Origin: Ignavibacteria bacterium RIFOXYB12_FULL_35_14
Lineage (GTDB): Bacteria; Bacteroidota; Ignavibacteria; Ignavibacteriales; Ignavibacteriaceae
NCBI GenBank assembly: GCA_001803045.1
Contig: MHAR01000087.1
Coordinates: forward strand, 38,587 to 93,146
Reading direction: 5' to 3'
DNA: 54,560 bases
Of the stretch, positions 25,816-42,753 are shown one piece after another (the stretch's first letter is position 1; every line of letters begins with the position of its first letter). The notes beneath the pieces were generated by a model, which saw only the letters and a program-made list of their open reading frames with translations, was not told the DNA's origin and ran no database searches. The position numbers and the translations under genes are program-made.

Positions 25816-26889
25816 ATGAAACGTCTTTTTGTACTTTCTTTGTTTCTGTTTTCTGTTTCTGTGTTTGGACAGGTTACAATTGATTTTGACACAACCGGTC
25901 AAAATTTTACATGGGTTAGCTTTGCGAATAATCCTGATTCTTCCATTGATTTTACTATTGTCGCAAATCCTTTCATGACAGGAATTAATACGTCAGCTAA
26001 TGTTGCAAAACATATCGTTAATGCTACTGCATCTCCATGGGCAGGTGCTTTTACTGATGATGTGAGCTTTACTGTAACTGCAGGTAATTCTACGCCTGCT
26101 ATTATGGTATATAAAGAAGTGATTTCAAATTGTGCACTTAAATTTGAGGGTCCCGTTCTAGGTCATGAGGTTAAAGTGCCCAATACTGTAACTAATCAAT
26201 GGGAACAGCTTGTATTCGATTTTACAGCCGACATTGGGAAAACGGTAACCAGAGTAGTTTTTTTTCCTGATTTCCCAGATACAAGAACAGCCGGCAGCAC
26301 TAACTATTGGGATAATCTTAAATTTGATTTTGTAATCCCGGTTGAGTTAACTTCCTTTACAGCCTCTTTTGTTGGAAGCAAGGTTCAATTGAATTGGATT
26401 ACTGCTACTGAAACTAATAATCAAGGTTTCGAAATTCAGCGAAGTGTTGATAATCGGAATTTTGAAAAGATTGCTTTTGTAAATGGCAAGGGTACAACAA
26501 CCGAAAAACAGAGTTACAGCTATCTAGACAATACTGAACTTACGGGTTCTAATTATTATAGACTGAAACAATTAGACTTTGACGGTAGCTATAGTTTTTC
26601 AAATACTGTTGAAGTCACCAGAGTAGTTTCCTATGAACTCAGTCAGAATTATCCAAATCCTTTCAATCCAACAACCACAATTACTTATTCAATACCGCAG
26701 AATTCATTTGTTACCTTAAAGGTATATAATATTCTGGGAAGCGAAGTTGCTGAATTAGTAAATGGACAAGTTGAAGCTGGTGTTCACAAAATTAATTTCA
26801 ACAGCTTTAATTTAAATAGCGGTGTCTATTTCTATACTATTAAAGCTGGTAACTTTAATTCTGCAAAGAAGATGACTTTAATGAAATAA
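25816..26889 (+). CDS. Secreted T9SS protein with N-terminal carbohydrate-binding-like beta-sandwich
   Basis: 357 aa: signal peptide (MKRLFVLSLFLFSVSVFGQ), then a beta-sandwich-like domain at ~20-172. Its pattern ('LKFEGPVLGHEVKVPNT', 'WEQLVFDFTADIGKTVTRVVFFPDF', 'YWDNLKFDF') resembles the sandwich modules attached to secreted glucanases. Next comes an FN3-like linker at ~175-265 ('VELTSFTASFVGSKVQLNW', typical of T9SS cargo), and a type A sorting domain from ~270, with NYPNPFNPTTTI. There is no catalytic domain, so a surface glycan-binding role is likely. It has a strong ribosome site (AAAGGAG) and is the first gene behind the LacI operators. Confidence 0.82.
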   Translation: MKRLFVLSLFLFSVSVFGQVTIDFDTTGQNFTWVSFANNPDSSIDFTIVANPFMTGINTSANVAKHIVNATASPWAGAFTDDVSFTVTAGNSTPAIMVYKEVISNCALKFEGPVLGHEVKVPNTVTNQWEQLVFDFTADIGKTVTRVVFFPDFPDTRTAGSTNYWDNLKFDFVIPVELTSFTASFVGSKVQLNWITATETNNQGFEIQRSVDNRNFEKIAFVNGKGTTTEKQSYSYLDNTELTGSNYYRLKQLDFDGSYSFSNTVEVTRVVSYELSQNYPNPFNPTTTITYSIPQNSFVTLKVYNILGSEVAELVNGQVEAGVHKINFNSFNLNSGVYFYTIKAGNFNSAKKMTLMK

Positions 26890-26992: not shown

Positions 26993-28738
26993 ATGAAAAA
27001 TATAGTATTTACTATTACAGTGCTTCTTTTTCTTTCTCTCACACTAAATACAAACACTTCGTTTGCACAAACTCATTCAGATCCACCTTATTTAAAGGTA
27101 GTTACGGCTGAAAAGCAGATAACAATCGATGGAATTCTTAGCGAAACAGACTGGCAGAAGAGATATGATTATCTTGTTTACGGTGCAAATGCTCTTCCGG
27201 GTGATGTCACTTATACCGTTACCGGCGGTATATTAGTCGATCCCGGCTATACAGATACAACAATAACATTCGTTAGATTTCTTCATGACGGTCTGAAATT
27301 GTACATCTCCTTGCAATCGTATGATAAATCCATCTGTAGAAGGACCACTGGTTGGGAGGGCGATGGATTATTCATGAAAATTAAGAAAGCTGACGGATCC
27401 ACAATTGAGTTTAAATTATTCTACAGTAGTGCAGGTGTTGGTGCACCTATTAAATTCGAAGCACCGTCACTTAACCCAACTTGGGGTGAAGGAGCCGGAT
27501 ATGTTATTCCTCCAGGTGTTGTTAATCACTTAGCTTCGGATGATACAGGCTACACTGCAGAAATGGTTATCTATCTTGACTCATTAGGTTACACAGACCC
27601 ACAAGCTGATATTCCTGTCTTGATAAATATATTTGATCCTGACGGATTTGACGACGTAACAACCACCGGTTCCTATCACAAAATGTGGTGGGGAAGTGAA
27701 TGGGGTGATAGCTTCCGTATGTTAAGACTTGCCGATCCGCCGTTAAAGCATGCAATCGTTACTACTGAAACAATCACTCTTGATGGTCAATTGAATGAAG
27801 TTTTCTGGGCTAATGCTGAAAGTGTAGTTGTAAGCAAACCCAGTAACACCAGCACAGGCGGTTATTATAAGCAATGGAATAGCCCACTCAATAGCTATAA
27901 TGATCAGAGCAGAGCTACGGTTAAGTTTGTACACAAAGGAACAGATCTTTATATCGGTGTAGAGTCCGATGATAAATCCGTATGCGAATGGGCACCAGGC
28001 TGGGAAGCTGATGGGCTTTTCCTATGGATGACTATGAAAGATGATTATTTACCGGATCCAGGTCAGAGGTTAGAAATTAAAAATATGTTCTTTGGAAATG
28101 TTGTCGGTGATTCTGCTCATTTCGAGTTAAGCGCTACTGTTCCAACAGGAGGCGCTGAAGGTGCTTCATTTGAACCGTTAGGAACAGTATCTCATACTGA
28201 AGTTGGAGGACCCGACGATGGTTACTCTCTTGAAGTTATTGTACATACCGATCTGTTTGGATATTCTGTTCTCGATACAGTTCGTCTGAGTATAGTTATT
28301 TATGATATTGATTATGCTTCTAACGATGCAATTAGTGCGGATACTTCTGATTTTGCTCCTAACTGGTGGGGAACTCAGTGGGTTGATAAATACTTCGAGA
28401 AATTCCATCTCTTCAGACAAGTTGTTCTTTCTAATTCTCCGACTGACGTAAAGGATAATCACAATGTATTTCCTAATTCTTTTGTACTGAAACAAAATTA
28501 TCCTAATCCATTTAATCCATCTACAACAATATCTTATTCAATTCCTGAAAACTCATCAGTTACTTTAAAAGTATTCAATGTTTTAGGAAATGAAGTCGCA
28601 ACACTCGTCAATGAATTCAAAAATGCAGGTGAATACAATATGAGGTGGCAGCCTTCAAATGTAAGTAGTGGAGTTTATTTTTATGAATTAAGGACAGATG
28701 ATTTTATTAAGACAAATAAAATGATACTGTTACGCTAA
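26993..28738 (+). CDS. Secreted T9SS protein with two CBM9-like domains
   Basis: 581 aa with signal peptide (to 'TSFAQ' ~26). Two related domains follow at ~35-245 and ~255-480. Each begins 'ITIDGILSETDW' or 'ITLDGQLNEVFW' and contains a 'LYISLQSYDKSI' or 'LYIGVESDDKSV' strand, then 'GWEGDGLF' or 'GWEADGLF'. This is the CBM9-like sugar-binding pattern. A type A T9SS sorting domain starts near 500 (NYPNPFNPSTTI). It carries no catalytic domain and is likely a surface glycan-binding protein, partner of the preceding gene. The ribosome site AAAGGAGG is near-perfect. A strong terminator follows. Confidence 0.85.
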   Translation: MKNIVFTITVLLFLSLTLNTNTSFAQTHSDPPYLKVVTAEKQITIDGILSETDWQKRYDYLVYGANALPGDVTYTVTGGILVDPGYTDTTITFVRFLHDGLKLYISLQSYDKSICRRTTGWEGDGLFMKIKKADGSTIEFKLFYSSAGVGAPIKFEAPSLNPTWGEGAGYVIPPGVVNHLASDDTGYTAEMVIYLDSLGYTDPQADIPVLINIFDPDGFDDVTTTGSYHKMWWGSEWGDSFRMLRLADPPLKHAIVTTETITLDGQLNEVFWANAESVVVSKPSNTSTGGYYKQWNSPLNSYNDQSRATVKFVHKGTDLYIGVESDDKSVCEWAPGWEADGLFLWMTMKDDYLPDPGQRLEIKNMFFGNVVGDSAHFELSATVPTGGAEGASFEPLGTVSHTEVGGPDDGYSLEVIVHTDLFGYSVLDTVRLSIVIYDIDYASNDAISADTSDFAPNWWGTQWVDKYFEKFHLFRQVVLSNSPTDVKDNHNVFPNSFVLKQNYPNPFNPSTTISYSIPENSSVTLKVFNVLGNEVATLVNEFKNAGEYNMRWQPSNVSSGVYFYELRTDDFIKTNKMILLR

Positions 28739-28858: not shown

Positions 28859-31507
28859 ATGAAACTTTTTTACCAATTAAGTCTGTACATATTTTTATTA
28901 GTTGTTCTTAGTGCAGCCGTCATCTTTCCCGGTCAGACAGGTAAAATTGCAGGTACCGTAAAAGATAAAAGCACTGGAGAACCATTAATTGGTGTGAATA
29001 TTTTTATTGAGAAAGCCACTATCGGTGCAGCTTCGGATATTAATGGAGATTACTTTATAGTTAATGTCTCACCTGGCGAATACACAGTTGTTGCTTCAAT
29101 GATTGGTTATCAATCTATGAAAGTAACCAAAGTAATTGTAACAGCAGATAGAACCACCAATATTAATTTTGAACTAGAGGCACAGAGACTTGAACTAAAT
29201 GAAGAAGTGGTTGTAACTGCTGAAAGACTCATAATCCGCAAAGACCTTACATCAAGCGAACTATCTGTTACTTCAAGTGAGATCAAAAGCCTTCCTGTTG
29301 AAAGTCTTTCTGATATCCTTCAACTTAAAGCTGGTGTTGTTACTGATGCAAGTGGAGGAATACATATCAGGGGCGGCAGAACCTCCGAGGTAAGTTACCT
29401 TGTTGATGGTATTCCCGTTAGTGATTATTATTCAGGTAGCAGCGGTGCAAATGTAGATGTCCAATTTATGGAAGAGGTAAAAGTAATCAGCGGTGTTTTT
29501 AATGCTGAATATGGGCAGGCTCTTTCCGGTGTGGTTGATGTTATTACAAGACAGGGATCTAATACGTTTCAGGGAAATATTTCGGTTTCATCCGGCGATT
29601 ATCTGAGTAATCATAAAGACATTTTCTTTAATATCGATGAAGTGAATCCAACCGGCACTTCAGAAATCAAAGCAAACATTAGCGGGCCATTAAATATTTT
29701 AGGTAAGAATATTAGTTACAATTTAGCTTTCAGAAGATTTTCAAATGATGGCTATCATTACGGTCAAAGGAGATTCAATCCAAAGGACAGTTCTTTTCAG
29801 GAAGGTGATGTTTTTCATATCGTCTCAACAGGCGATAATAAAATTATTTCGATGAATCCTTTCTTAAATTATAACTTCCAAGGCAAATTTGCTTTCAATC
29901 TTTTACAGGAATTAAAAATATCTAATCTTTTTTTATGGGAAAAAACCAATTCTAAATATTACAACCATATATTTAAACTTAATCCTGATGGACTTCCTGA
30001 AAAATTTACTAACTCACTAAATAATATAGTTACGTTTACCTATGTCTTTTCTCCGAGTACTTTCCTTGATTTAAAATATTCATACGGCAGAAGCGAAGAA
30101 AAGTCATATGTATTTGAAGATATTAGAGATGCCCGATACGCAAATCCTGAACTTCTGAACCAGCTTACCAGTTACGCTTTTCTAACGGGTGGAACTTATA
30201 TGGGGCATTCCGGTAGAATCACCAATACTAACATTATCAAAGCTGATTTATTCAGCCAGGTTGATAACTACAATGGAATAAAAACCGGGATTGAATTAAA
30301 TCTTGGAAAGATTCAACTTAACAATGAAATTGTTAAGTATCAGGATACTCTAAAAGTTTTTGATTTCAATTATTTCATTAACCAGGGCAAGTTTGAATAT
30401 AATCCTGTTTCTTTTGCTTGCTATCTTCAGGATAAAGTTGAATATAAAAGCGTAATTATTAATGCTGGCGTTCGATACGATTATTTTAATTCAAACGGTA
30501 AAGTACCAACCGATCTTCGCGATCCGGAAAACTCTCCAAAAATTAATGCAAAAGAGCAGCACCAGGTAAGCCCAAGGCTGGGCATTGCTTTTCCTATCTC
30601 AGCAGATGGAACAATACACTTTAGCTATGGACATTTCTTCCAACTACCGCCATACAGCTATCTGTATTCAAATCCTAATTTTAGGGTTGGACCCGGTGGA
30701 TTATACACCCTTATGGGAAATGCAAATCTAAAAGCACAATCTGTTGTTGCTTACGAACTTGGTCTGCATTACCAGTTTTTTGATATGATTGGACTTGAGG
30801 TCATAGGGTACTACAAGGATATCACAAATCTGCTTGGTACTGAAATACAGGATACATACATAAAGAGCGACCGATATGCTTTATATGTAAACAGGGATTA
30901 TGGCAAGGCACGTGGATTTACTGTTTCACTATCGAAACGACCAACAGAAGATCACGTTTCAGTTTCACTTGATTACACTTTACAAATTGCAGAGGGCAAT
31001 GCTTCTGATCCAAACGATGCTTTTAATCGCGCACAGGGCACACCTCCTAAACAACCAAACATCCAGGTTGTTCCTCTTAATTGGGATCAGAGACATACTA
31101 TAAACCTTTCACTCTTTTATATAGTTCCCGGCGATTTCAATCTTGGAGTAATCGCTAAGTATGAAAGCGGTTTCCCTTATACACCTGAGTTGCAGTCAAT
31201 ACAAACAAGTTATGAAAACAGTTCAAGAATTCCATCAAAGACAAACGTTGATTTACAATTCAATAAAGATTTTATAATTGGAGAAACTACTCTTTCATTC
31301 TTTGTAAGAGTATTTAATCTTTTCGATACAAGAAACGAAATAAATGTTTACCGCGATACAGGAAGAGCCGGTTACACGCTTATAAGTCAGTACACTCCGC
31401 AATACCAGGGTCCAAATACATTAGACGAATTTTTAAATAGACCCGATTATTATACTGAACCGAGAAGAATTCTTCTAGGTGTATCACATAATTTTAATCT
31501 GCAATAG
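28859..31507 (+). CDS. TonB-dependent outer-membrane receptor
   Basis: An 882-aa active transporter driven by TonB/ExbBD. After a signal peptide comes a carboxypeptidase-regulatory-like domain at ~28-115 ('GKIAGTVKDKSTGEPLIGVNIFIEKATIGAASDINGDYFI'), then a plug at ~125-235 ('IHIRGGRTSEVSYLVDGIPVSDYY', 'VISGVFNAEYGQALSGVVDVITRQGSN'), then a beta-barrel ending 'ILLGVSHNFNLQ'. SusC proteins are about 1000 aa and come with SusD. No SusD gene is present here; a 1050-aa T9SS-like protein follows after 9 bp instead. It presumably imports glucan fragments released at the surface. Confidence 0.92.
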   Translation: MKLFYQLSLYIFLLVVLSAAVIFPGQTGKIAGTVKDKSTGEPLIGVNIFIEKATIGAASDINGDYFIVNVSPGEYTVVASMIGYQSMKVTKVIVTADRTTNINFELEAQRLELNEEVVVTAERLIIRKDLTSSELSVTSSEIKSLPVESLSDILQLKAGVVTDASGGIHIRGGRTSEVSYLVDGIPVSDYYSGSSGANVDVQFMEEVKVISGVFNAEYGQALSGVVDVITRQGSNTFQGNISVSSGDYLSNHKDIFFNIDEVNPTGTSEIKANISGPLNILGKNISYNLAFRRFSNDGYHYGQRRFNPKDSSFQEGDVFHIVSTGDNKIISMNPFLNYNFQGKFAFNLLQELKISNLFLWEKTNSKYYNHIFKLNPDGLPEKFTNSLNNIVTFTYVFSPSTFLDLKYSYGRSEEKSYVFEDIRDARYANPELLNQLTSYAFLTGGTYMGHSGRITNTNIIKADLFSQVDNYNGIKTGIELNLGKIQLNNEIVKYQDTLKVFDFNYFINQGKFEYNPVSFACYLQDKVEYKSVIINAGVRYDYFNSNGKVPTDLRDPENSPKINAKEQHQVSPRLGIAFPISADGTIHFSYGHFFQLPPYSYLYSNPNFRVGPGGLYTLMGNANLKAQSVVAYELGLHYQFFDMIGLEVIGYYKDITNLLGTEIQDTYIKSDRYALYVNRDYGKARGFTVSLSKRPTEDHVSVSLDYTLQIAEGNASDPNDAFNRAQGTPPKQPNIQVVPLNWDQRHTINLSLFYIVPGDFNLGVIAKYESGFPYTPELQSIQTSYENSSRIPSKTNVDLQFNKDFIIGETTLSFFVRVFNLFDTRNEINVYRDTGRAGYTLISQYTPQYQGPNTLDEFLNRPDYYTEPRRILLGVSHNFNLQ

Positions 31508-31516
31508 GTTTAACTT

Positions 31517-34500
31517 ATGAACAAGAGAAAGTTAATTTTAATAATTTTATTCTTTACCTTCTTTTCTATTGAGATATTCTCTCAGATTCATATACCATTA
31601 AATATGCGGGGAGATAGAAAATATCGCAAAGAAGGAATCCATAACAGTAATCTTGTTGAAACTCTTTTCTATAACTTTGGTGAGGTTGCCTGGTGGGGAA
31701 GAGAACCATCGGGGGTTTGGCCTAAAGGATCGGGTCATACTTATATGGATGGTATTACTCCCATAGTAGCTGCTGAAGTTGTGGATGCAAATGGGAACAC
31801 TATACGAATTGTTGAAGCAGGATACCGTGAAAATATGGATATCTCTCCAACTGGTGTTGAACGCGGGTGGCAGCCAAGACCGGGTTATGTTAATCCTAAC
31901 CAGGATAATATTGCGATGAGCGATAAACCAATTACCTGGCCTGAGTCCTGGCCCGATAAAGATGCTTCGTGGAATGGATTCTGGAATGGTTATTTTGGTA
32001 AACGTACAAATGCCGACCAGGAAAGTTTTTTTGTTATGGATGATAATAGCGACGACGGTCCTAATTTTTATCCCGATTCTACTGATCATACAAGAAGAGG
32101 TTTAGGAACAAGTGTCGGTGTTCGCGGCTTCCAGTGGTCTAACCTGCTTGCCGAAGATATTGTTTTCTGGCATTATGAAATTACTAATGAAGGAACAAAA
32201 AACTATTCTAAAATAATTTTTGGAATGTATGTCGATTGTGGTGTCGGAGGTCAGTATGACTCTAATGATGATTATGCTTCATTTGATATTGGCAACGATA
32301 TAACTTATAGCTGGGATCATGATGGAGTGGGGCAGGGTGGATGGCAGCCGACTGGTTATGCTGGTTATGCCTTTCTAGAAAGCCCGGGCAACGGCTACAA
32401 TGCAATTGATGACGATAATGATGGTGAAGCTGGCAGCCCTACAATTACTAATCAAATGCTTATTGGTGAACTCAAGGGAAATGGTATTGATGATAATGGC
32501 AACGGGCTTGTTGATGAAGACTCAATAAATGTTGGGATGAAATATGCTGACGGTATAGATAATAACGGTGATGGAAAAACTGATGAGATGATTGATGAAA
32601 CACGCGACGATGGAATTGATAATGATGGTAACTGGAATTCAAGCACAGATGATGTCGGATTAGATGGGCTGACTGGAAACGGTGATTTTGGTGAAGGGGA
32701 TGGGCTTCCAACTTCGGGCTGGCAGCTTCCGGGTGTTGTGCCTGGCGCACCGACTTTTCCTCTTAATAAATTTGGGTTGGTTGATACAAAACAGCCTGGT
32801 GAACCCCACATTGATAAGACCGATAAAAATGAATCCGACCAAATAGGACTTACTGCTTTTGATGTTTTCTATATAGGATCAGGAGTTGTTTTTAGGGAAG
32901 ATAACCAGATATGGAACAGGATTTCTTATAGCCACTTCGATACCAGGCTGCAGAATGGTAATATCGCATTCCTCTTCGGTTCAGGTCCTTTTATTTTGCC
33001 TTCGGGAACAACTGAAAGATTTTCTTTAGCTCTCGTGTTTGGTACAGATCTTCAGGATATTCAAAGGAATAAACAGGTTGTTCAGGATATCTATGATAAC
33101 AATTATAACTTTGCGCGTCCACCTGATAAACCAACTTTAACTGCAATACCGGGCGATGGAAAAGTTATTTTATATTGGGACAATGCTGCCGAAAATTCTT
33201 ATGATGATTTTTTAAATGAGTATGATTTTGAAGGCTATAAAATTTATAAAAGTACAGACCCTGGCTTTATTGATTCATACACTATTACAAGCGGGTATGG
33301 AGAGAATGCTCTTTTCAAGCCTTCAGCACAGTTTGATATTGTGAATGAAGTTCGTGGTTTCTTCCCGCTCGATTACCAGGGTGTTAAAATTTATATGGGT
33401 GATAATAAAGGTTTGAAACACTCCTGGGTGGATTATGATGTGGTAAATGGACAAACTTATTACTATGCGCTTGTTTCGTACGACAAAGGAAATGTACCTA
33501 TCGGAGTTTATCCATCCGAATGTGCAAAAGTGATTGTTCGTGATCTTGCAGGGAATATCAGGATAGATAAAAACACTGCCTATGTTACTCCGGGTACACG
33601 TACTGCTGGTTATGATGAACCGGGGCTTGTTGGTGGAATTGAACGCACTTCGGGTTTTGCAACAGGTACTATTGGGGTTGAGGTTCTTAACCCGATGAAT
33701 GTTGCAGATGAAAATTTTGTTTTAAAGTTCAACGATACTACTCATCCGGATACCATCCAATACTCCATCTCCAAGGTTAATGGATTTGACACAACAGATA
33801 TTCTTTCTAATTCCCCTTATATAAATGGAGAAGATTTTAACCCGATGTTTAACGGAATCAGGGTTCTTGTTATGAATGATACAATTGCTTTTGATCCGGA
33901 TAATTCCGGTTGGAAAGACGATGCGTCTAATCTCATCATTCAGGGATCACTGTTACGTTCGTTACCCAGTAGAGTGCATGGTTATCCTTCAAGCTATGAA
34001 ATTAGAGTCGGTGAGCCTGATTCATCCTGGCGTTTTGGATATAGGTCTGCAACCAACTTCCAGGTTTGGGATGTTTATGAAAATGAAAAAGCATTATTCT
34101 ATTTCTGGGAACCGACCGGGCAGCAGGATGAAAAAATTTCGGTTGGTGATTATATAACTATTTGGAAGCGGATTGAGGGAATTTGGAGAGAGATTTGGAA
34201 ATTTTCATTTGTTGCACCTCCTAACCAGGAATTAATACTGCCTGAAAATGGAGACAAAGGGGAAATTGTTATTAGAACTCCTTTCAGAACAGGTGATGTT
34301 TATACATTCACAACAAAAAGTATAGCTATCAATCGGGCAAAAGCTGAAGAGGATATGAACCTTATTGCAGTAGTGCCTAATCCCTATGTAGGCGCTGCAA
34401 AGTGGGAACCACAAAGATTAACTTCTTCAGGAAGAGGTGAGCGCCGAATTTATTTTATACATCTTCCCCGCGAAGCTACAATAAGAATTTACACGATAAG

Positions 34501-34669
34501 CGGCAATCACGTAAACACGATCTACCATAATTCAGCTAATTATGACGGGCAGGAACCCTGGAACCTTACTAATAAAGAAGGGCTGGACGTAGCACCAGGT
34601 GTTTATATTTATCACGTCGAATCGCCCGGGCTTCCGGATAAGATAGATAAATTTGCCATTATCAAATAA
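31517..34669 (+). CDS. Large secreted protein with Asp-rich Ca-type repeats and T9SS-like C-terminus
   Basis: 1050 aa with signal peptide (ending 'IEIFSQ'). Residues ~296-390 hold at least four thrombospondin-3-like or EF-type repeats, of the form 'IDDDNDGE', 'GIDDNGNGLVDED', 'GIDNNGDGKTDE', 'GIDNDGN'. An FN3-like segment follows near 540-690 ('KPTLTAIPGDGKVILYWDNAAENS'). The C-terminus ('VVPNPYVGAAKWEP', 'IRIYTISGNHVNTI', 'GVYIYHVESPG', 'KIDKFAIIK') is a variant T9SS/FlgD-like sorting domain. It sits between the TonB-dependent receptor and a PorV-type barrel. By position it could be a surface lid or binding partner of the receptor, in the place where SusD would be; this is inference. Confidence 0.75.
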   Translation: MNKRKLILIILFFTFFSIEIFSQIHIPLNMRGDRKYRKEGIHNSNLVETLFYNFGEVAWWGREPSGVWPKGSGHTYMDGITPIVAAEVVDANGNTIRIVEAGYRENMDISPTGVERGWQPRPGYVNPNQDNIAMSDKPITWPESWPDKDASWNGFWNGYFGKRTNADQESFFVMDDNSDDGPNFYPDSTDHTRRGLGTSVGVRGFQWSNLLAEDIVFWHYEITNEGTKNYSKIIFGMYVDCGVGGQYDSNDDYASFDIGNDITYSWDHDGVGQGGWQPTGYAGYAFLESPGNGYNAIDDDNDGEAGSPTITNQMLIGELKGNGIDDNGNGLVDEDSINVGMKYADGIDNNGDGKTDEMIDETRDDGIDNDGNWNSSTDDVGLDGLTGNGDFGEGDGLPTSGWQLPGVVPGAPTFPLNKFGLVDTKQPGEPHIDKTDKNESDQIGLTAFDVFYIGSGVVFREDNQIWNRISYSHFDTRLQNGNIAFLFGSGPFILPSGTTERFSLALVFGTDLQDIQRNKQVVQDIYDNNYNFARPPDKPTLTAIPGDGKVILYWDNAAENSYDDFLNEYDFEGYKIYKSTDPGFIDSYTITSGYGENALFKPSAQFDIVNEVRGFFPLDYQGVKIYMGDNKGLKHSWVDYDVVNGQTYYYALVSYDKGNVPIGVYPSECAKVIVRDLAGNIRIDKNTAYVTPGTRTAGYDEPGLVGGIERTSGFATGTIGVEVLNPMNVADENFVLKFNDTTHPDTIQYSISKVNGFDTTDILSNSPYINGEDFNPMFNGIRVLVMNDTIAFDPDNSGWKDDASNLIIQGSLLRSLPSRVHGYPSSYEIRVGEPDSSWRFGYRSATNFQVWDVYENEKALFYFWEPTGQQDEKISVGDYITIWKRIEGIWREIWKFSFVAPPNQELILPENGDKGEIVIRTPFRTGDVYTFTTKSIAINRAKAEEDMNLIAVVPNPYVGAAKWEPQRLTSSGRGERRIYFIHLPREATIRIYTISGNHVNTIYHNSANYDGQEPWNLTNKEGLDVAPGVYIYHVESPGLPDKIDKFAIIK

Positions 34670-34682
34670 GCAGGTATAAGCT

Positions 34683-35693
34683 ATGAATAAATATTTATTG
34701 ATAATTGTTATTACACTGCTTTTAGGGAATAAAAGTTTTTCACAAGTTTTTTCTGGCACAACTGCCGGGCAGTTTTTAAAAATTGAAGTTGGAGCTAAAG
34801 CAATTGCTATGGGCGGTGCATTTGTTTCTCAGGCTAATGATGCATCTGCCTTATATTGGAATCCCGGGAGTCTTTCCAAATTACAAAATAGTAGGGTAAT
34901 GTTTACACACACATTCTGGCTGGCAGATATCAATCACGATTTTGCAGGTATAGTTTTAAAAATTGGTGATCAGCATACAATTGGTATTAGTTATACTTCT
35001 TTAACTATGGGCGACATGAAAGTTAGAACAGAAATTTATCCTGAGGGTACAGGTGAATTATTTACAGTAAGCGATTATTCACTTGGTGTAAGTTATGGAT
35101 TAAATCTAACGGAAGATTTTAGCATTGGTTTTACAGGTAAATACGTTGGAGAAAATATTTGGCATATGTCCGCTTCAACTATCGCTTTTGATTTTGGGTT
35201 ACTTTATTATACTCCTGTTAAAAACCTGCAATTAGGTATGAGTGTTTCCAACGTTGGTGGTAAAATGAAATTTTCAGGCGAAGATAATTTTATTTATTAC
35301 ACTTATAATCCGGATGAACATGGTAACAGTGATAAGATATACGCTGAATTAAAGATGGATGAGTGGGACTTACCCCTGATTTACCGAGTTGGATTATCAT
35401 TCAAAGCGCTTGATACTGAAATTCATGCTTTAACAATTAGTGCAGATGCCATTCACTCAAATGATTATAACGAGAGTGTAAATATCGGCTGCGAGTACGG
35501 TTTTAGGGAAAGAGTTTTTTTGCGTGCAGGTTACAAATCACTATTCATGGAAGAAAGTGTTGAAGGATTAACAGTAGGTGTTGGTTTAATATATTTTCTT
35601 ACAGATTATTTACCGATGAAAGTAGATTACGCTTATGCCGATTTTGGCAGGCTGCAATCTGTTCACCGGATTTCAGTAGAGATTGGATTTTAA
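34683..35693 (+). CDS. PorV/PorQ-family outer-membrane beta-barrel
   Basis: 336 aa with signal peptide (to 'NKSFSQ') and the family opening 'TTAGQFLKIEVGAKAIAMGGAFVSQANDASALYWNPGSLSKL'. Alternating amphipathic strands continue to the C-terminal Phe ('ISVEIGF'). In characterised T9SS, PorV carries cargo from the translocon to the attachment complex. Paralogues like this one are common next to transporter and cargo genes in this group. It lies 13 bp after the 1050-aa gene, so it may serve that cargo, or the receptor, specifically. The family call is firm, the dedicated role inferred. Confidence 0.88.
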   Translation: MNKYLLIIVITLLLGNKSFSQVFSGTTAGQFLKIEVGAKAIAMGGAFVSQANDASALYWNPGSLSKLQNSRVMFTHTFWLADINHDFAGIVLKIGDQHTIGISYTSLTMGDMKVRTEIYPEGTGELFTVSDYSLGVSYGLNLTEDFSIGFTGKYVGENIWHMSASTIAFDFGLLYYTPVKNLQLGMSVSNVGGKMKFSGEDNFIYYTYNPDEHGNSDKIYAELKMDEWDLPLIYRVGLSFKALDTEIHALTISADAIHSNDYNESVNIGCEYGFRERVFLRAGYKSLFMEESVEGLTVGVGLIYFLTDYLPMKVDYAYADFGRLQSVHRISVEIGF

Positions 35694-36074: not shown

Positions 36075-38456
36075 TTGAAAAAGAAATTTGAAACCCAATT
36101 TGGTTATTTCTCCGAGGATGGAAATGAATATGTAATTAAATCAGTTCATACTCCCAAACCATGGGTCAATGTCATTTCAAACGGAGACTATGGTTTAGTC
36201 ATTTCACAAGCCGGAGGAGGATTTAGCTGGCAGACTCATTCTGAATTTAACAGAATTAACAGATGGCATCAGGATCTTATCCAAGACAATTGGGGAAAAT
36301 ATATTTACATAAGAAATAATAAAACGGGAAAGTTTTGGAGTCCGACATTTCTTCCTGTCAAAAAGAAACTTGATAATTTTAAGTGCAGACATGGGATTGG
36401 ATACACAATTTTTGAATCGGAATACAAAGGCATTAAAACCCAATTAACTATTTTCGTTCCGACAGATGCCAACCTGGAAATTTGGGATTTGAAAATTTCA
36501 AACCACTCCGGTAAAGATGCCGATCTTTCCCTTTTCACTTATTTCGAATGGTGTCTTGGTTCATCAGCCGATCATCATCGTGAATTCCATCGTTCATTTT
36601 TAGAAACAGAGTTCAATGAAAATGAAAACACAATGTTCGCTACAAAAAGATTGTGGGAGATTCCACTTGGTGACAGGGGACATTGGAATATTGATTATCA
36701 ACACTTTGGATTTTTAAGCTGCAACAAAAAAGTAAAAGACTATGAGTCTGACAAAGAGTTTTTTGTTGGACAATATGGAGATTTAATTAATCCTTCTGCA
36801 TTGTCGAAGAAAAAACTCTCAAATCAAACAGGTAAATGGATTGATCCGATTGGATGTATCAAAGTTGATCTTAAAATTAAAAAGAATAAATCTGACGATG
36901 TCGCATTTTATCTTGGACTTGTTGATGAAAAGGCGGATGCAAAGAAAGTTCTTAAAAAATTTAATACGTCGTCGCAAATCGAAGAGGCATTGGAGAAAGT
37001 TAAAACCAAATGGGCTGATATTCTCGGATCGCTAGAAATTGATACTCCAGATGAAAGCATGAATCTCTTGGTCAATAAGTGGTTAAGATATCAAGCAATT
37101 TCAGGAAGAATGTGGGGTAGAACAGCTTACTATCAACAAAGCGGAGCGTTCGGATTTAGAGATCAACTTCAAGATAGCTTAGTGTTTTTGCCAATTGATC
37201 CGAAGTTAACGGAAAAGCAAATCCGGCTTCACGCTAAACATCAATTCGAAGATGGAACAGTTTTGCATTGGTGGCATCCGATAACCGATACAGGTTTACC
37301 AACAAAAATGACTGATGATCTTTTGTGGCTGCCGTTTTTAATGATTCATCATTATGTGGAAACTGGGGACTTATCTCTTTTTGATGAATCAAGTGAGTTT
37401 TACGATAACAAAAAGCTAAAAACATCTCTTTACGATCATTGTATTCGGGCTATCGACAAAGTATTATCGAGAATGAGCAAGAGAGGTTTGCCTCTAATTG
37501 GAGCTGGAGATTGGAATGATGGATTAAGCGCTGTTGGTTTAGATTGGAAAGGTGAATCAATCTGGCTTGCTGAGTTTTTATTTTATATTCTTTCGGAGTT
37601 TCAAAAAATATCTGTACTAAAAAATGATTTTAATCGCTCAGATAATTTGAACAAAGCAGCTGATACATTAAAACAAGCTTTTGAAAAGCATGCGTGGGAT
37701 GGCGAATGGTTTTTTAGAGGAACGAAAGACAGCGGGGAAAAATTTGGTTCAAAAGAAAATAAAGATGGCAAGATTTATTTAAATGCACAGACATGGTCAG
37801 TTATCAGCGGGATTACTGATGATGAAAAACAAACTTCGGCAATGAAAGCTGTTCAAAAGCATCTCATAAAGAAAAATGGTCCGCTGCTTCTATATCCTGC
37901 TTACAAAAAACCGGATAAGTTTATTGGCTATCTGTCTCGATATGCTGCCGGAAGAAGAGAAAATGGCGGCGTATACATGCATGCCGCAACTTGGGCAATT
38001 TGGGCATTTGCCAAATTGGGTGACGCCAAGAATGCTTATAATGTTTATCAGAAGCTGTCTCCGATTAATAATGGGATGAAGCCAGATGAATATTTCGCCG
38101 AGCCATATGTCACTCCGGGAAATATTGAAGGCCCGGATTCTCCGCAGTATGGTCGTGGGGGTTGGACTTGGTACACTGGATCTGCTTCATGGCTTCAAAA
38201 AGTTGTTGTTGATTGGATTTTGGGAATAAGAGCATCGGAGGAGGGATTGATTATTGATCCATGCATTCCCAAAGAATGGAAAGGATTTACTGTTAAAAGA
38301 AAGTTTAGAAATACTAACTATAACATTTCTGTAATAAATGATAGTCATGTTTCCAGCGGTATTAAAAAAATTGAAGTTGATGGAGTTTCTCAGGAATCAA
38401 TTATAATTAAACCGACAGGCCAAAAGTTTTCCAATGTAAAAGTATATTTGGGATAG
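36075..38456 (+). CDS. GH94 glycoside phosphorylase (cellobiose-phosphorylase-like)
   Basis: 793 aa, no signal peptide, so cytoplasmic. It shows the GH94 layout: an N-terminal beta-sandwich ('GDYGLVISQAGGGFSWQTHSEFNRINRWHQDL', 'YFEWCLGSSADHHREFHR'), then an (alpha/alpha)6 barrel ('SGAFGFRDQLQDSL', 'HWWHPITDTGLPTKMTDDLLWLP'). The 'GDWNDGL' motif (residues 479-484) carries the family's general acid Asp. It splits a beta-linked glucose disaccharide or oligosaccharide with phosphate to yield glucose 1-phosphate. The length is near cellobiose phosphorylase (~800 aa) rather than the longer 1,2-beta-oligoglucan phosphorylases (~1100 aa), so the linkage is open. The start is TTG at 36075, 34 bp after the broken regulator; no in-frame ATG fits. 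Confidence 0.9.
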   Translation: MKKKFETQFGYFSEDGNEYVIKSVHTPKPWVNVISNGDYGLVISQAGGGFSWQTHSEFNRINRWHQDLIQDNWGKYIYIRNNKTGKFWSPTFLPVKKKLDNFKCRHGIGYTIFESEYKGIKTQLTIFVPTDANLEIWDLKISNHSGKDADLSLFTYFEWCLGSSADHHREFHRSFLETEFNENENTMFATKRLWEIPLGDRGHWNIDYQHFGFLSCNKKVKDYESDKEFFVGQYGDLINPSALSKKKLSNQTGKWIDPIGCIKVDLKIKKNKSDDVAFYLGLVDEKADAKKVLKKFNTSSQIEEALEKVKTKWADILGSLEIDTPDESMNLLVNKWLRYQAISGRMWGRTAYYQQSGAFGFRDQLQDSLVFLPIDPKLTEKQIRLHAKHQFEDGTVLHWWHPITDTGLPTKMTDDLLWLPFLMIHHYVETGDLSLFDESSEFYDNKKLKTSLYDHCIRAIDKVLSRMSKRGLPLIGAGDWNDGLSAVGLDWKGESIWLAEFLFYILSEFQKISVLKNDFNRSDNLNKAADTLKQAFEKHAWDGEWFFRGTKDSGEKFGSKENKDGKIYLNAQTWSVISGITDDEKQTSAMKAVQKHLIKKNGPLLLYPAYKKPDKFIGYLSRYAAGRRENGGVYMHAATWAIWAFAKLGDAKNAYNVYQKLSPINNGMKPDEYFAEPYVTPGNIEGPDSPQYGRGGWTWYTGSASWLQKVVVDWILGIRASEEGLIIDPCIPKEWKGFTVKRKFRNTNYNISVINDSHVSSGIKKIEVDGVSQESIIIKPTGQKFSNVKVYLG

Positions 38457-38677: not shown

Positions 38678-40807
38678 ATGAGTTTCAAAGCAGCACAAGG
38701 TTATTTTTTAAAAAATGGAAAACCATTCTTTGTAATATCCGGAGAGATCCATTACTTCAGACTCGATTCGCATCTTTGGGAGAAACACCTTATCCTACTT
38801 AAACAAGCAGGTGCGAACACAACATCCGCATACATTCCTTGGGATTGGCACGAGTACGAAGAAAACAAATTTGATTTTAATGGGGAAACAAATCCCGCCA
38901 GAAATCTAATCAAGTACATCAAACTTTGCAAAAAAATAGGATTGGATTTAATTGTTAAACCCGGTCCATATATCTTAGCCGAATATGAAAATCAAGGATT
39001 ACCCGAATGGTTTATAAATAAAAGAGAAACGAATGCACATGCTTTGGATGAACGCGGAAATATTATCTCTCCTGATTTGATGTCTTACCTTTCGGATGAA
39101 TTTCTTCACTTCACTTTCCTTTGGTATGATAAAATTATGCCCATTATTGCAGAACACCAGGAAAGTATAGGTGGTCCGATTACGATGATGCAAGTGTGTA
39201 ACGAAGTAGGCGTATTCCAGTGGTTGTCGGGTAAAATCGATTACCATGAGTCAGTCGTCAAGCTATACAAGACTTTTCTGAAAGAGAAGTATCAATCAAT
39301 CGAAACCATGAATATGACTTACGGAACTGAATATTCTTCATTTGACGAAGTTATTGCTCCACGAGGGAAAATTAAGGACAAACAAGACTACTGTGCATAC
39401 TATGATTTCCATCTTTTTTACCGCCATTATTATGCATCATATCTTGATACTCTGATAAATAAAATTAGAAGCTACGATATCAATCTTCAATTAACACATA
39501 ATATCCCTGGTTGGATTTACGGCATTGCTGCAGAGTTACCAATGCTGATAAGCACTTATGAAGAAGTTATGAGAACACGCTCGGATATTGTTTTTGGTTT
39601 AGATCACATTCCGGAGTTTTTTTCATTCCGTAATGCACACTCTGATTTAGCATGCAATAAAATTCTTGAAGCAATGCAGCCGTATGGACCAGTTTGGGCA
39701 GCCGAATTTCAATGCGGAACACGCGAACATCATGTTAAAAGCGATACAACTGATTTAGAAGCATTTTATTACGCGTCTCTTGCACATGGTATAAAAAGTT
39801 TTAACTACTACATGTTCTCTCAAGGAATAAATCCGAAGGGCAAAGGATTCTTCGGGAAGACATTTTATTATCAAACGGCATTGGAGTCAAAGGCATTAAA
39901 ATTGCCTTTGTATGAATCAATAAAAAAAGTAGATCGCTTCATCAACAAAGAAAAAGAAGATTTACTGATAAGTGAAACCAAATCCGAGATTTGTGTTGGT
40001 CTTTATAAACCATATTTCTACACTGAGCTTACCACTTCCCAAATGCTGAAGGAAAAAAGACTTGATGTTGCAAAACTTGGACTACTATTCGATCCTCGTT
40101 TTATTCGTGAAGAGATATTTTTTAACGGATTATTGAGAGGACTTCAAACATTAAATGTTAATTATGATATACAAGATTTAGAAAGAACAACCGTTAATGA
40201 TTTGCTCAAATACAAGCAGTTGTGGGTCACAACAATAGAATTTATGGACGGCAAAATTCAGCAGTTGCTTGTGAATTACGTTAAAGCAGGCGGGCATCTA
40301 ATCATGTACCCGGCAATTCCAACACTGGATTTATATCTTAACAAGTGTACATCATTACAAGATGAACTTAATCTGCAATTTTATAAATCCTCCAGTCCAA
40401 ATAAAGTTGAAGCTTTTGGCATTGAAGACTTGTTCACGGTGTTCGGGGAAAAGCTAATCTTTGAATCTGAAAAGGAAGCTGTTGTTTCAAAGACAAAAAC
40501 GGGAGAAGCCTGCGGAATAAGAAAAAAAGTTGGTAATGGCTTTTTAACTGCACTCGGATTTGCTTTTGGCTATACATCCGACGAACATTTGCATCTTATC
40601 GAAAAAGTTGTTTTGTTTGATAAAATAAAAAGGCAGGCAAAAGTATCTGATCCAGATATTCAATTTATTATTCGTAAAGGGGAAAAGAATTCCTATTTAT
40701 TCTTGTTGAATTATCATAATCAGAGAAAAACATTTACAGTTGATTCAAAACAGGTTACATTAAATCCTTTTTCGTGTAAAATTATTAAGCAGAAAAACAG
40801 GATTTGA
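38678..40807 (+). CDS. GH35-type beta-galactosidase family glycosidase
   Basis: 709 aa, no signal peptide, so cytoplasmic. The TIM-barrel part matches GH35: 'GKPFFVISGEIHYFRLDSHLWEKHLILLKQAGANTTSAYIPWDWHE' and 'DLIVKPGPYILAEYENQGLPEW'. The acid/base Glu176 is in 'MMQVCNEVG', and the candidate nucleophile Glu343 in 'WAAEFQCGT'. The C-terminal third has a flavodoxin-like segment ('GGHLIMYPAIP') and a small beta-domain. The active-site flanks differ from classic beta-galactosidases (NEVG instead of NEYG), and the neighbours handle glucans, so the true substrate may be another beta-linked sugar. Confidence 0.8.
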   Translation: MSFKAAQGYFLKNGKPFFVISGEIHYFRLDSHLWEKHLILLKQAGANTTSAYIPWDWHEYEENKFDFNGETNPARNLIKYIKLCKKIGLDLIVKPGPYILAEYENQGLPEWFINKRETNAHALDERGNIISPDLMSYLSDEFLHFTFLWYDKIMPIIAEHQESIGGPITMMQVCNEVGVFQWLSGKIDYHESVVKLYKTFLKEKYQSIETMNMTYGTEYSSFDEVIAPRGKIKDKQDYCAYYDFHLFYRHYYASYLDTLINKIRSYDINLQLTHNIPGWIYGIAAELPMLISTYEEVMRTRSDIVFGLDHIPEFFSFRNAHSDLACNKILEAMQPYGPVWAAEFQCGTREHHVKSDTTDLEAFYYASLAHGIKSFNYYMFSQGINPKGKGFFGKTFYYQTALESKALKLPLYESIKKVDRFINKEKEDLLISETKSEICVGLYKPYFYTELTTSQMLKEKRLDVAKLGLLFDPRFIREEIFFNGLLRGLQTLNVNYDIQDLERTTVNDLLKYKQLWVTTIEFMDGKIQQLLVNYVKAGGHLIMYPAIPTLDLYLNKCTSLQDELNLQFYKSSSPNKVEAFGIEDLFTVFGEKLIFESEKEAVVSKTKTGEACGIRKKVGNGFLTALGFAFGYTSDEHLHLIEKVVLFDKIKRQAKVSDPDIQFIIRKGEKNSYLFLLNYHNQRKTFTVDSKQVTLNPFSCKIIKQKNRI

Positions 40808-40872: not shown

Positions 40873-42753
40873 ATGAGTAATTTGATAAAATATTTTTTAG
40901 TTGTTGCTATAAGCGGCTTGTGTTTTATTCGTGCACAATCAGATACGACTGCACCTCAGTCGCCACAGGGTGTACGAGCATTTGGATATGAAAAAAATCT
41001 CGATGTTGAGTGGTATCACAATAGTGAACCAGATCTTGCTGGATATAATATTTATATAAAAAGTGGTCAAAATTATAATTTATTTACAAAAATAAGTAGA
41101 GAAAAAAGTTATTATTCAATCAATACGAATTTTATTGGTGTTGGTTATTACTTTAAAGTTAGTGTGTATGATTCTAGCGGAAATGAATCTCCCCTAAGCG
41201 ACAGTGTTTATGCAATTACGCATATTATGACCGATGAAGAGTTCCTCGATATGGTTCAGCGCTCAACATTCAGATATTTTTATGATTATGCTCATCCTGT
41301 TTCTGGTTTATCGAGGGAAAGATTGGGTTGGGGTGAAACTGTAACAAGCGGCGGATCTGGCTTTGGAGTGATGGCTCTTTTAGTTGGTATTGAACGGGGG
41401 TTTATTACTCGACAGCAAGGAGTGGAGCGCATGTTGAAAATTTTGAACTTTCTTAAAAATAAAGCAAATAAATTTCATGGTGCTTTCTCTCACTGGTTAA
41501 ATGGAACAACAGGAGCAGTAATTCCATTCAGTACAATAGATAATGGTGGAGATTTGGTTGAAACTTCTTACATGATTCAAGGTTTACTTGCAGTCCGTCA
41601 ATATTTTGGTCAAACAAATGCCGATGAACAGCAGATCAGAGATTTATGCACTGAAATTTGGAATGGCGTTGAATGGGATTGGTACAGACGCACTTCAACG
41701 AGCAGTTTTTTGTACTGGCATTGGTCTCCAAATTACAACTGGCAGATGAATATGACTGTTCGTGGTCCGAACGAGGCAATGATAGTTTATCTTCTTGGAA
41801 TTGCATCAACCACACATGGAGTTCCAGCAAGTTTGTTTCACAATGGCTGGGCAAGTTCACCTTATTATGTTAACACTAAAAGTTTCTATGGGTATAGGAT
41901 TTGGGTTGGCTGGGATTACGGTGGGCCTCTTTTCTTTTCACATTATTCCTTTTTGGGTTTTGATCCTAGAAACAAAAAAGATAGTTATTGTAATTACTTC
42001 CTGAACAGCAAAAATATAACCTTGATTCATAAGGAGTATTGCACTGACAACCCGAAAAATTATACGGGCTACAATGTAAACTGCTGGGGATTAACAGCAA
42101 GCGATGATCCTACAGGTTATCGCGTTCATGAACCGACCAATGATAATGGAACTATAACTCCATCAGCTGCATTATCGTCTTTGCCATATACTCCACAAGA
42201 ATCGATTGAAGTAATAAAGCATCTTTATAGAACTTATGGTTCGGATGTTTGGGGTGAGTATGGTTTTAAAGATGCTTTCAATCCTACTGTAAAATGGTAT
42301 GCCGGTAGTTATCTTGCTATCGATCAAGGTCCTATAATTGTAATGATTGAAAATTACAGAAGCGAATTATTATGGGAAATGTTTATGGCAAATCCTGAAA
42401 TTCAGCCCATGCTAAACGCAATCGGTTTTGTGCCGGATTCAACTACAGATGTTATTGATGGAAAAGATTTGGATTACTCTTTTGAGCTTGAAGGAAATTA
42501 TCCAAATCCTTTTAATCCGAATACGGTTATTAGATTTGAACTTCCTCAAAATCAGAAAGTTAGTATTAAAGTTTATAACACATTAGGACAACAAGTCAGA
42601 GATTTATTAGCAGGTGAACTACAGAAAGGAACAAATGGGGTTTTATGGGATGGAAAAAGCGATGACGGCTTTTCGCTTCCAAGCGGAGTTTATATTTATA
42701 AGATAGAATCAGAAGAAAAAATGCTCAGCAGCAAAATGATTCTTCAAAAATGA
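40873..42753 (+). CDS. T9SS-exported PF10091/GH144-like glucanase with FN3 domain
   Basis: 626 aa: signal peptide ('VAISGLCFIRAQ'), an FN3 domain at ~27-115, the catalytic 'glycoamylase' (PF10091) domain at ~120-520, and a type A T9SS sorting domain from ~535 (NYPNPFNPNTVI). Catalytic-domain landmarks are 'STFRYFYDYAHPVSGLSRERL', 'GGSGFGVMALLVGIERGFITRQQGVERM', 'NGGDLVETSYMIQGLL' and 'WGEYGFKDAFNPTVKWYAGSYLAIDQGPIIVMIENYRS'. PF10091 proteins of this type include GH144 endo-beta-1,2-glucanases, so this enzyme probably makes the first cuts at the cell surface. Not every family member has been tested. An AGAGGT ribosome site precedes the ATG. Confidence 0.85.
   Translation: MSNLIKYFLVVAISGLCFIRAQSDTTAPQSPQGVRAFGYEKNLDVEWYHNSEPDLAGYNIYIKSGQNYNLFTKISREKSYYSINTNFIGVGYYFKVSVYDSSGNESPLSDSVYAITHIMTDEEFLDMVQRSTFRYFYDYAHPVSGLSRERLGWGETVTSGGSGFGVMALLVGIERGFITRQQGVERMLKILNFLKNKANKFHGAFSHWLNGTTGAVIPFSTIDNGGDLVETSYMIQGLLAVRQYFGQTNADEQQIRDLCTEIWNGVEWDWYRRTSTSSFLYWHWSPNYNWQMNMTVRGPNEAMIVYLLGIASTTHGVPASLFHNGWASSPYYVNTKSFYGYRIWVGWDYGGPLFFSHYSFLGFDPRNKKDSYCNYFLNSKNITLIHKEYCTDNPKNYTGYNVNCWGLTASDDPTGYRVHEPTNDNGTITPSAALSSLPYTPQESIEVIKHLYRTYGSDVWGEYGFKDAFNPTVKWYAGSYLAIDQGPIIVMIENYRSELLWEMFMANPEIQPMLNAIGFVPDSTTDVIDGKDLDYSFELEGNYPNPFNPNTVIRFELPQNQKVSIKVYNTLGQQVRDLLAGELQKGTNGVLWDGKSDDGFSLPSGVYIYKIESEEKMLSSKMILQK

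Follow-up and report, generated by a model that had tools for sequence, protein, structure and literature searches.

Among Bacteroidota, SusC/SusD systems pair a TonB-dependent receptor with the SusD lipoprotein at the cell surface. For Ignavibacteriales, the passages concerned of a paddy-soil study describe carbohydrate gene clusters and report susCD as scarcely detected (PMC10576277), and the genome paper of Melioribacter roseus mentions, in its passage on the subject, one SusCDE operon (PMC3534657). A β-1,2-glucan cluster of Ignavibacterium album, as described in parts of a paper on its enzyme IaSGT (IALB_1185), comprises a member of glycoside hydrolase family 35 (GH35), two putative GH144 enzymes, a GH94 protein and an ATP-binding cassette (ABC) binding protein, and the authors guess that a TonB-dependent transporter imports the products (PMC8861115). 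Some proteins of the type IX secretion system (T9SS) are paired with barrels: according to sections of a review, the C-terminal domain (CTD) of PorZ stays on PorQ and that of PorU on PorV, while genes for PorP/SprF barrels lie in clusters with those of type B cargos, for which the barrels are proposed as anchors (PMC10202324). Here we describe a locus of Ignavibacteria bacterium RIFOXYB12_FULL_35_14 (contig MHAR01000087.1; "the window" denotes the whole analysed stretch of 54,560 nucleotides) in which a TonB-dependent receptor, a secreted protein of 1050 amino acids (the cargo) and a PorV-family outer-membrane barrel are encoded side by side as what we call the triad. We think that the triad probably imports glycans in the manner of SusCD, with a sugar-binding protein exported by the T9SS, together with its own PorV-type barrel, in place of the SusD lipoprotein. 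A description of such a triad was not found in the literature searched, subscription papers, preprints and supplements being outside the reach of that search.

Gene order and co-divergence of the triad

The window proteins were compared with Pfam and NCBIfam models at their cut-offs, and the folds of the cargo and its CTD are AlphaFold2 models compared with the PDB by Foldseek and VIA. The receptor, cargo and barrel genes lie on one strand with gaps of 9 and 13 bp, our open reading frame (ORF) calls agreeing with the genes and the spacing given in an initial annotation of this DNA. The triad and the parts of its cargo are:

28859..31507, + strand: TonB-dependent receptor, 882 amino acids, with CarboxypepD_reg, a TonB-box-like EEVVVTAER, Plug and a TonB barrel
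31517..34669, + strand: secreted cargo, 1050 amino acids, signal-peptide-like start, without lipobox
31604..33106, + strand: cargo residues 30-530, predicted β-supersandwich (GH94/GH116, glucodextranase type) without catalytic α/α barrel
32384..32836, + strand: cargo residues 290-440, an insertion in the supersandwich with Asp-rich calcium-type motifs, mostly of low model confidence
33107..34321, + strand: cargo residues 531-935, putative β-sandwich (fibronectin III/Ig-like) region
34322..34666, + strand: cargo residues 936-1050, putative divergent T9SS-type CTD, nearest PorZ
34683..35693, + strand: PorV/PorQ-family outer-membrane barrel, 336 amino acids, paralogous to the canonical PorV and PorQ of this genome

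The receptor exceeds the Pfam cut-offs for Plug (51 bits, cut-off 23.9), for the TonB barrel (95.2 bits, cut-off 27) and for CarboxypepD_reg, and falls under that of the SusC/RagA model TIGR04056 (84.5 bits, cut-off 368.25). The barrel is a member of PorV_fam (NF033709, 218.8 bits, cut-off 90) that stays under both canonical cut-offs (NF033710, 82.6 against 250 bits; NF033711, 110.8 against 220 bits). Outer-membrane parts of the T9SS itself are present in the genome above their NCBIfam cut-offs (bits/cut-off: SprA 991.7/200, PorU 981.5/420, PorV 268.5/250, PorQ 274.6/220, PorZ 400.8/260), PorU adjoining the canonical PorV, and the triad barrels are, by sequence relationship, extra paralogues beside the canonical PorV and PorQ. 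In 97% of 200 bootstrap trees they form one group apart from those two, node support being weak (31/57) and branches long. Further paralogues of PorV_fam type occur outside triads in the same genome, at L050:7601-9707 (two, one of them below the cut-off), L051:9130-10302 and G000:C60:32478-33239, those of L050 and L051 sitting on long branches.

The genome (4.10 Mb in 95 contigs, completeness 100%) contains 26 stretches that match the cargo query, 19 PorV_fam loci over the cut-off and 33 Plug loci, and calling ORFs in 20 fetched regions gave 13 complete triads: that of the window, L032-L041, L043 and L044. Incomplete copies are L045, which is rearranged, L046, cut by a contig end, and L047, an orphan cargo-like gene. 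At L045:4524-14413 receptor and barrel are adjacent and two genes separate cargo and receptor; both here and at L046 (70-6097) an apparent lipoprotein of about 500 residues, without NCBIfam match, is encoded upstream of the receptor. The pairwise distances among the 13 triads correlate at 0.92 for receptor and cargo, 0.86 for cargo and barrel and 0.87 for receptor and barrel, values reached in none of 20000 permutations, and when the proteins were aligned in another way and the distances corrected, the values were 0.84, 0.81 and 0.84, respectively. As all copies reside in one genome, this co-divergence is no species-tree effect and shows, as far as gene distances can, that the triad was duplicated and diverged as one inherited unit.

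Outside this genome we examined the best 80 of at least 558 stretches encoding relatives (at least 583 stretches matched in the genome_contigs scan); these named loci are the stretches closest to the window cargo, and neighbour counts lean to its relatives. They hold 86 cargo-family ORFs, 71 of which have at least 1.5 kb upstream and at least 1 kb downstream, and 64 of these 71 have a receptor upstream and a barrel downstream (receptor alone 3, barrel alone 2, neither 2), with median gaps of 14 and 14 bp in complete triads. The seven exceptions are three tandem cargos (L071 twice, L094), three loci crowded with overlapping long ORFs in which our simple ORF caller is unreliable (L117 of Eisenbacteria, L121 and L131 of Latescibacterota), and L101, where no barrel is visible. 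The tandem pairs, L071:9926-16333 and L094:622-6419, consist of differing cargo-family genes.

Represented among the 80 loci are Ignavibacteria, Melioribacteraceae, Caldithrix, Neomarinimicrobiota, Gemmatimonadetes, WOR-3, Stahlbacteria, KSB1, Eisenbacteria, Latescibacterota and a Rhodothermaceae bacterium, a spread that at phylum level includes Ignavibacteriota, Calditrichota, Fidelibacterota and Gemmatimonadota. Stygiobacter electus carries a triad (L070), and so does a single-contig genome of the class (G140, locus L161, gaps of 21 and 12 bp). The three-gene order thus recurs in the class, as the initial annotation had supposed, and beyond it, and the 13 own triads together with the 64 of 71 flanked ORFs exclude a chance neighbourhood or an order specific to this contig. 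In a survey of 197 genomes of the class, in which up to four cargo candidates were scored per genome, 191 gave some cargo match; a strong match (best E < 1e-50, counted by hand) was found in just 102, another 89 being weak only and 6 having none, so that 191 overstates the true spread. With the CTD removed from the query, 62 of 148 phylum genomes match at E 1e-10. Copy numbers of cargo and PorV_fam are correlated across the 197 genomes (Spearman 0.85), these being loose first-look counts from genomes that are not independent.

The cargo and its C-terminal domain

The cargo has no Pfam match at E 0.01 and no sequence match to carbohydrate-active enzyme families in Pfam or NCBIfam. Its model, built from 67 sequences, has a mean predicted local distance difference test score (pLDDT) of 83.7 and a predicted template-modelling score of 0.75. 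In this predicted model, residues ~30-530 match the β-supersandwich of glucodextranase 1ug9 (Z 20.0, root-mean-square deviation (rmsd) 2.8 Å over 240 residues), and enzymes such as dextran dextrinase and members of GH94, GH116, GH149, GH161 and GH174 likewise match. Enzymes of the GH94, GH116 and glucodextranase type carry a helical α/α catalytic barrel after the supersandwich. The cargo model has none: residues 530-1050 are nearly all β, with helices at 557-560 and 940-949 only. The N-terminal half of the cargo is accordingly predicted to be the supersandwich domain of a carbohydrate enzyme minus its catalytic barrel, and from this modelled fold and the genomic context we infer a sugar-binding role. 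In this way a fold can be predicted, and a function suggested as likely, for a widespread protein family whose window member lacks a Pfam match.

The Asp-rich calcium-type repeats noted initially in this protein are real, the motif D.[DN].[DN]G occurring three times (residues 298, 325 and 348) against a shuffle mean of 0.28, with three or more in 13 of 5000 shuffles. They belong to an insertion of the N-terminal domain that is modelled with low confidence, and as a trait defining the system they were set aside, since the motif is missing from 3 of the 13 own-genome paralogues and the insertion from more. The first 40 residues of the window cargo contain no Cys and thus no lipobox; a lipobox pattern occurs in 2 of the 71 cargos and was judged to lie inside the signal helix. 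Opposite the cargo gene, minus-strand open frames at 31598-32089 and 32452-32811 are most likely shadow ORFs.

Modelled alone, the CTD has seven strands (pLDDT 84.7) and finds PorZ (5m11) as its top match (Foldseek E 9.8e-5; VIA Z 11.5, rmsd 3.2, 92 residues). The T9SS-like C-terminus read from this protein at the outset therefore stands by its fold, whereas by family score it does not: the tail reaches 17.7 bits against TIGR04183, under the cut-off of 23, and the window cargo, which has no Pfam match, exceeds the cut-off of neither TIGR04183 nor PF18962, the models for type A cargos. A type B (CHU_C) match is likewise absent from the window cargo and was weak in one of the 13 own cargos (E 6e-4). 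Sixteen proteins with a classical CTD, encoded at these loci of the same genome, served for comparison, matches being counted at E up to 0.01. TIGR04183 matches 4 of the 13 triad cargos (best 1.4e-4) as against all 16 classical proteins (Fisher p 7e-5), and the PorZ model of NCBIfam matches 8 of 13 (best 1e-11) as against 2 of 16 (Fisher p 0.016).

Taken as a whole, the evidence on the CTD is mixed. The PorZ model, too, is below its cut-off for the window cargo. In VIA, where a fold absent from the tables is not thereby excluded, PorZ is followed by Vpr, which does not belong to the T9SS (Z 10.2), and only then by PorU (Z 9.7); many further Ig-like domains score Z 7-9 against the triad CTD, so that the CTDs of mirolase, NucA and RemA (Z 7.5-7.7) are within the range of common Ig-like folds. 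The PorU model of NCBIfam has matches in both sets (triad cargos 4 of 13, classical proteins 7 of 16), and by hhalign the triad CTD is tied between the classical set, PorU and PorZ (96.1, 96.2 and 95.4 over 54, 91 and 90 columns). PorU, for its part, scores 98.0 against the classical set, with 44.8 bits to the classical and 34.9 to the triad profile. Since the classical set is closer to PorU and further from PorZ (hhalign probability 67.8), the triad CTD leans to PorZ and not to PorU, and a PorU-like label for it was dropped, the PorU CTD being nearer the classical set.

Carbohydrate loci and the distribution of SusD

Neighbouring genes are mostly co-oriented with the triads (112 of 120 downstream, 76 of 91 upstream). 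We scanned genes of at least 150 residues within 3 kb of triads (84 of 112 downstream, 75 of 76 upstream), the family counts covering 25 of the 41 families found downstream and 25 of the 46 found upstream; as controls we chose 20 arbitrary regions in ten class genomes and scanned 120 of their 156 ORFs, with 25 of 189 families counted down to single members, so that any other family stands at no more than 1 in 120. Downstream, the 84 genes include SBP_bac_1 (16), BPD_transp_1 (14), Por_Secre_tail (13), GH16 (9), malectin (9), GH94 (7) and CBM20 (5), and upstream the 75 genes include Por_Secre_tail (33), LacI (15), CBM9 (14) and SSF (9). In the controls Por_Secre_tail was found in 4 of 120, and LacI, SBP_bac_1, CBM9, GH16 and GH94 each in at most 1 of 120. 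With that bound the enrichment is significant for LacI, SBP_bac_1 and CBM9 (p < 1e-5), GH16 (0.002) and GH94 (0.009), the exact proportions being biased by the wider range of phyla among the named loci. As judged from gene families, triads are thus shown to sit in carbohydrate loci with LacI regulators, sugar ABC transporters and glycosidases, a context by which the import reading is strengthened.

At the window the triad is surrounded by the following genes:

25816..26889, + strand: secreted protein with a classical T9SS tail and no other recognised domain, at the head of the locus and probably a member of it
26993..28738, + strand: secreted protein of 581 amino acids with a classical T9SS tail
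36075..38456, + strand: GH94 phosphorylase
38678..40807, + strand: GH35, 1074 bits to the solved β-1,2-glucosyltransferase 7vkw
40873..42753, + strand: PF10091 enzyme with a classical T9SS tail, related to endo-β-1,2-glucanase 5gzh
42750..44072, + strand: binding protein of a sugar ABC transporter; among solved structures 3uor matches best, followed by Lin1841 (5ysb)
44073..44993, + strand: ABC permease (BPD_transp_1)
44990..45811, + strand: ABC permease (BPD_transp_1)
45875..46903, + strand: LacI-family regulator
46919..48322, + strand: second PF10091 enzyme

The first PF10091 enzyme scores 473 bits to the endo-β-1,2-glucanase and 512 to a putative glucoamylase, and the binding protein 388 bits to the ABC sugar-binding protein 3uor and 248 to Lin1841. 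From their names we take 7vkw to be IaSGT, Lin1841 to be the sophorooligosaccharide-binding protein cited in the I. album paper, and PF10091 to correspond to GH144. By these matches, a GH144-type enzyme, GH94 and a protein of the sophorooligosaccharide-binding type occur together at the window locus, and the substrate of the window copy is probably β-1,2-glucan oligosaccharides. A window-type cargo (at least 48% identity) is present at 11 named loci. All 11 encode a homologue of the 581-residue T9SS protein upstream, and of the 9 whose downstream sequence extends for at least 1.7 kb, 8 have GH94 there, compared with 4 of 56 other loci, some of which have little downstream sequence; hence the triad lineage appears to go with the substrate. 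The GH35 gene (38678-40807) is a variable part of the locus, having no homologue near any of 67 triad rows.

The SusD models PF07980, PF14322 and PF12771 found no match in the own genome, a Bacteroides ihuae control being positive each time. A divergent SusD hidden in this genome was rejected as well, with all three models empty and the apparent lipoproteins of L045 and L046 without a SusD match. The initial description of the triad as standing in place of SusC/SusD fits the genome for which it was made, but copy numbers do not support it for the class. PF07980 matches occur in 46 of the 197 class genomes, nearly all with one or two. The two systems can occur in one genome, as G140 shows with a triad and a single SusD match. 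Four or more SusD matches were found in G139, G147 and G166 (4, 8 and 4), which belong to one family and are all among the six genomes without a cargo match. At four SusD places in these genomes (L162-L164) a SusD ORF of about 450 residues stands beside an ORF of about 1000 residues; of these neighbours, two give a weak match to the triad-receptor profile (75 bits each), and a Cys is present near the start in three of the four SusD ORFs read. Though a single lineage, this family is a natural comparison for the gain or loss of both systems.

Proposed import complex, alternatives and known systems

A role of the triad in carbohydrate uptake is very probable in our judgement, and we are inclined to regard the cargo as the sugar-binding partner of the receptor. 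We propose that the cargo would be exported through the shared SprA translocon, that its PorZ-like CTD would remain uncleaved and be held on its own PorV-type barrel, as PorZ is on PorQ, and that the supersandwich, positioned over or beside the receptor, would bind sugar. The receptor would then import oligosaccharides in a TonB-driven manner, and periplasmic enzymes and the ABC transporter would complete uptake. As PorZ and PorU keep their CTDs on PorQ and PorV, and PorP/SprF barrels are proposed to anchor type B cargos, we lean slightly towards a barrel that anchors its cargo for good; because the PorU CTD is nearer the classical set than the triad set, we grade this step lower and consider it evenly poised whether the barrel is a permanent cognate anchor rather than a transient shuttle. 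If receptor, cargo and barrel form a stable complex, it might constitute a second, independent form of TonB-driven glycan capture, in which the lid that SusD forms elsewhere would be a retired carbohydrate-enzyme domain, carried out by the T9SS and fixed to a PorV-type barrel of its own; Ignavibacteriota, Calditrichota and Fidelibacterota would be among the related phyla that use it. This idea we hold tentatively, at just short of even confidence.

Other observations weigh against the importer. Per-domain co-divergence paired neither the CTD with the barrel nor the N-terminal domain with the receptor, and the TonB-box-like pattern was seen in only 38 of 71 receptors. Class-wide, cargo and SusD copy numbers show no anticorrelation (rho -0.08, p 0.27), leaving a general mutual exclusion of triad and SusD unsupported. 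The supersandwich fold does not prove sugar binding, and contact among receptor, cargo and barrel, the binding of sugar, its transport and the barrel's role as anchor or shuttle are what we infer.

The barrel is open to two other explanations. It could be a shuttle that merely carries the cargo from SprA to the receptor or the sortase, the cargo then being anchored otherwise, for example to anionic lipopolysaccharide by PorU, or on the receptor alone. PorV is described as the shuttle of type A cargos in the part of the review devoted to it (PMC10202324), and the genome has canonical PorU, PorZ and PorQ; yet one barrel accompanies each cargo, 13 times over, unlike one PorV serving many cargos, and the triad CTD is unlike the classical CTDs of the same genome, its nearest solved fold being that of PorZ, whose CTD is retained on PorQ. 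We regard such a shuttle as a serious but less likely explanation. That the barrel is instead a second import channel of the FadL type, the cargo serving both channels, is very improbable. In its favour, PorV is called a homologue of FadL in a passage of PMC12578637, and there are weak matches to TodX and CymD and one to Toluene_X under the Pfam cut-off. The best solved match, however, is PorV itself, at 103.6 bits compared with 24.1 for TodX, and the genes around the triads are carbohydrate genes, whereas FadL channels carry hydrophobic substrates.

The cargo, too, could be something other than a binding protein. Its fibronectin-like and Asp-rich calcium-type regions, and the many T9SS-tailed proteins near triads, would suit a structural or adhesive surface protein for attachment to substrate or biofilm, with a receptor that is just co-regulated. 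This we find unlikely, as the cargo co-diverges tightly with the receptor, has a carbohydrate-enzyme fold and tracks by its lineage the enzymes of the locus, as seen for GH94. A surface enzyme, glycosidase or lyase, is suggested by the fold shared with domains of glucodextranase, GH94, GH116, GH149 and GH161 enzymes and by the match to GH174 endo-fucanases (Z 14.6), and is in our view more doubtful still, since the almost entirely β second half leaves no room for an α/α catalytic barrel and the CAZyme models of Pfam and NCBIfam find no family in the sequence. Returning to the importer, the triad would be a concrete and testable answer to how oligosaccharides cross the outer membrane of Ignavibacteriales; with its help, uptake loci of uncultured phyla could be identified, and the expanded PorV family would gain a further role as a partner of nutrient importers.

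Among described systems, the I. album β-1,2-glucan cluster is matched by the window in its GH35, two PF10091 enzymes, GH94, binding protein and TonB receptor; unlike in that cluster, for which the paper's introduction names a putative GH3, GH3 was not seen in the window. SusD or secretion is mentioned nowhere in the main text of that paper, nor is the cargo or a PorV protein in its passages on the cluster (PMC8861115). Like type B cargos with PorP/SprF, such as SprB and SprF, the triad clusters a cargo gene with a dedicated T9SS barrel, but the barrel is of the PorV/PorQ rather than the PorP family, the window cargo lacks a CHU_C match and a TonB receptor is present. With PorZ-PorQ and PorU-PorV the triad shares the pairing of a T9SS-CTD protein with a PorV-family barrel, its CTD being nearest PorZ by fold and NCBIfam counts, while the CTD of PorU, unlike triad CTDs, is closer to the classical ones. 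Those pairs are machine parts, whereas the barrel and cargo of the triad exist in many copies, each linked to a TonB receptor, beside the genome's own PorU, PorV, PorQ and PorZ. The triad differs from SusC/SusD in a receptor far under the SusC cut-off, in a genome where no SusD homologue was found, and in a cargo of T9SS type that is larger than SusD, is predicted to fold differently, carries no lipobox and is accompanied by a PorV-family barrel. What it has in common with the SusC/SusD systems of Bacteroidota is a CarboxypepD_reg-bearing TonB receptor with an adjacent gene for a surface partner, present in many copies per genome and set in carbohydrate loci with a regulator, glycosidases and further surface proteins.

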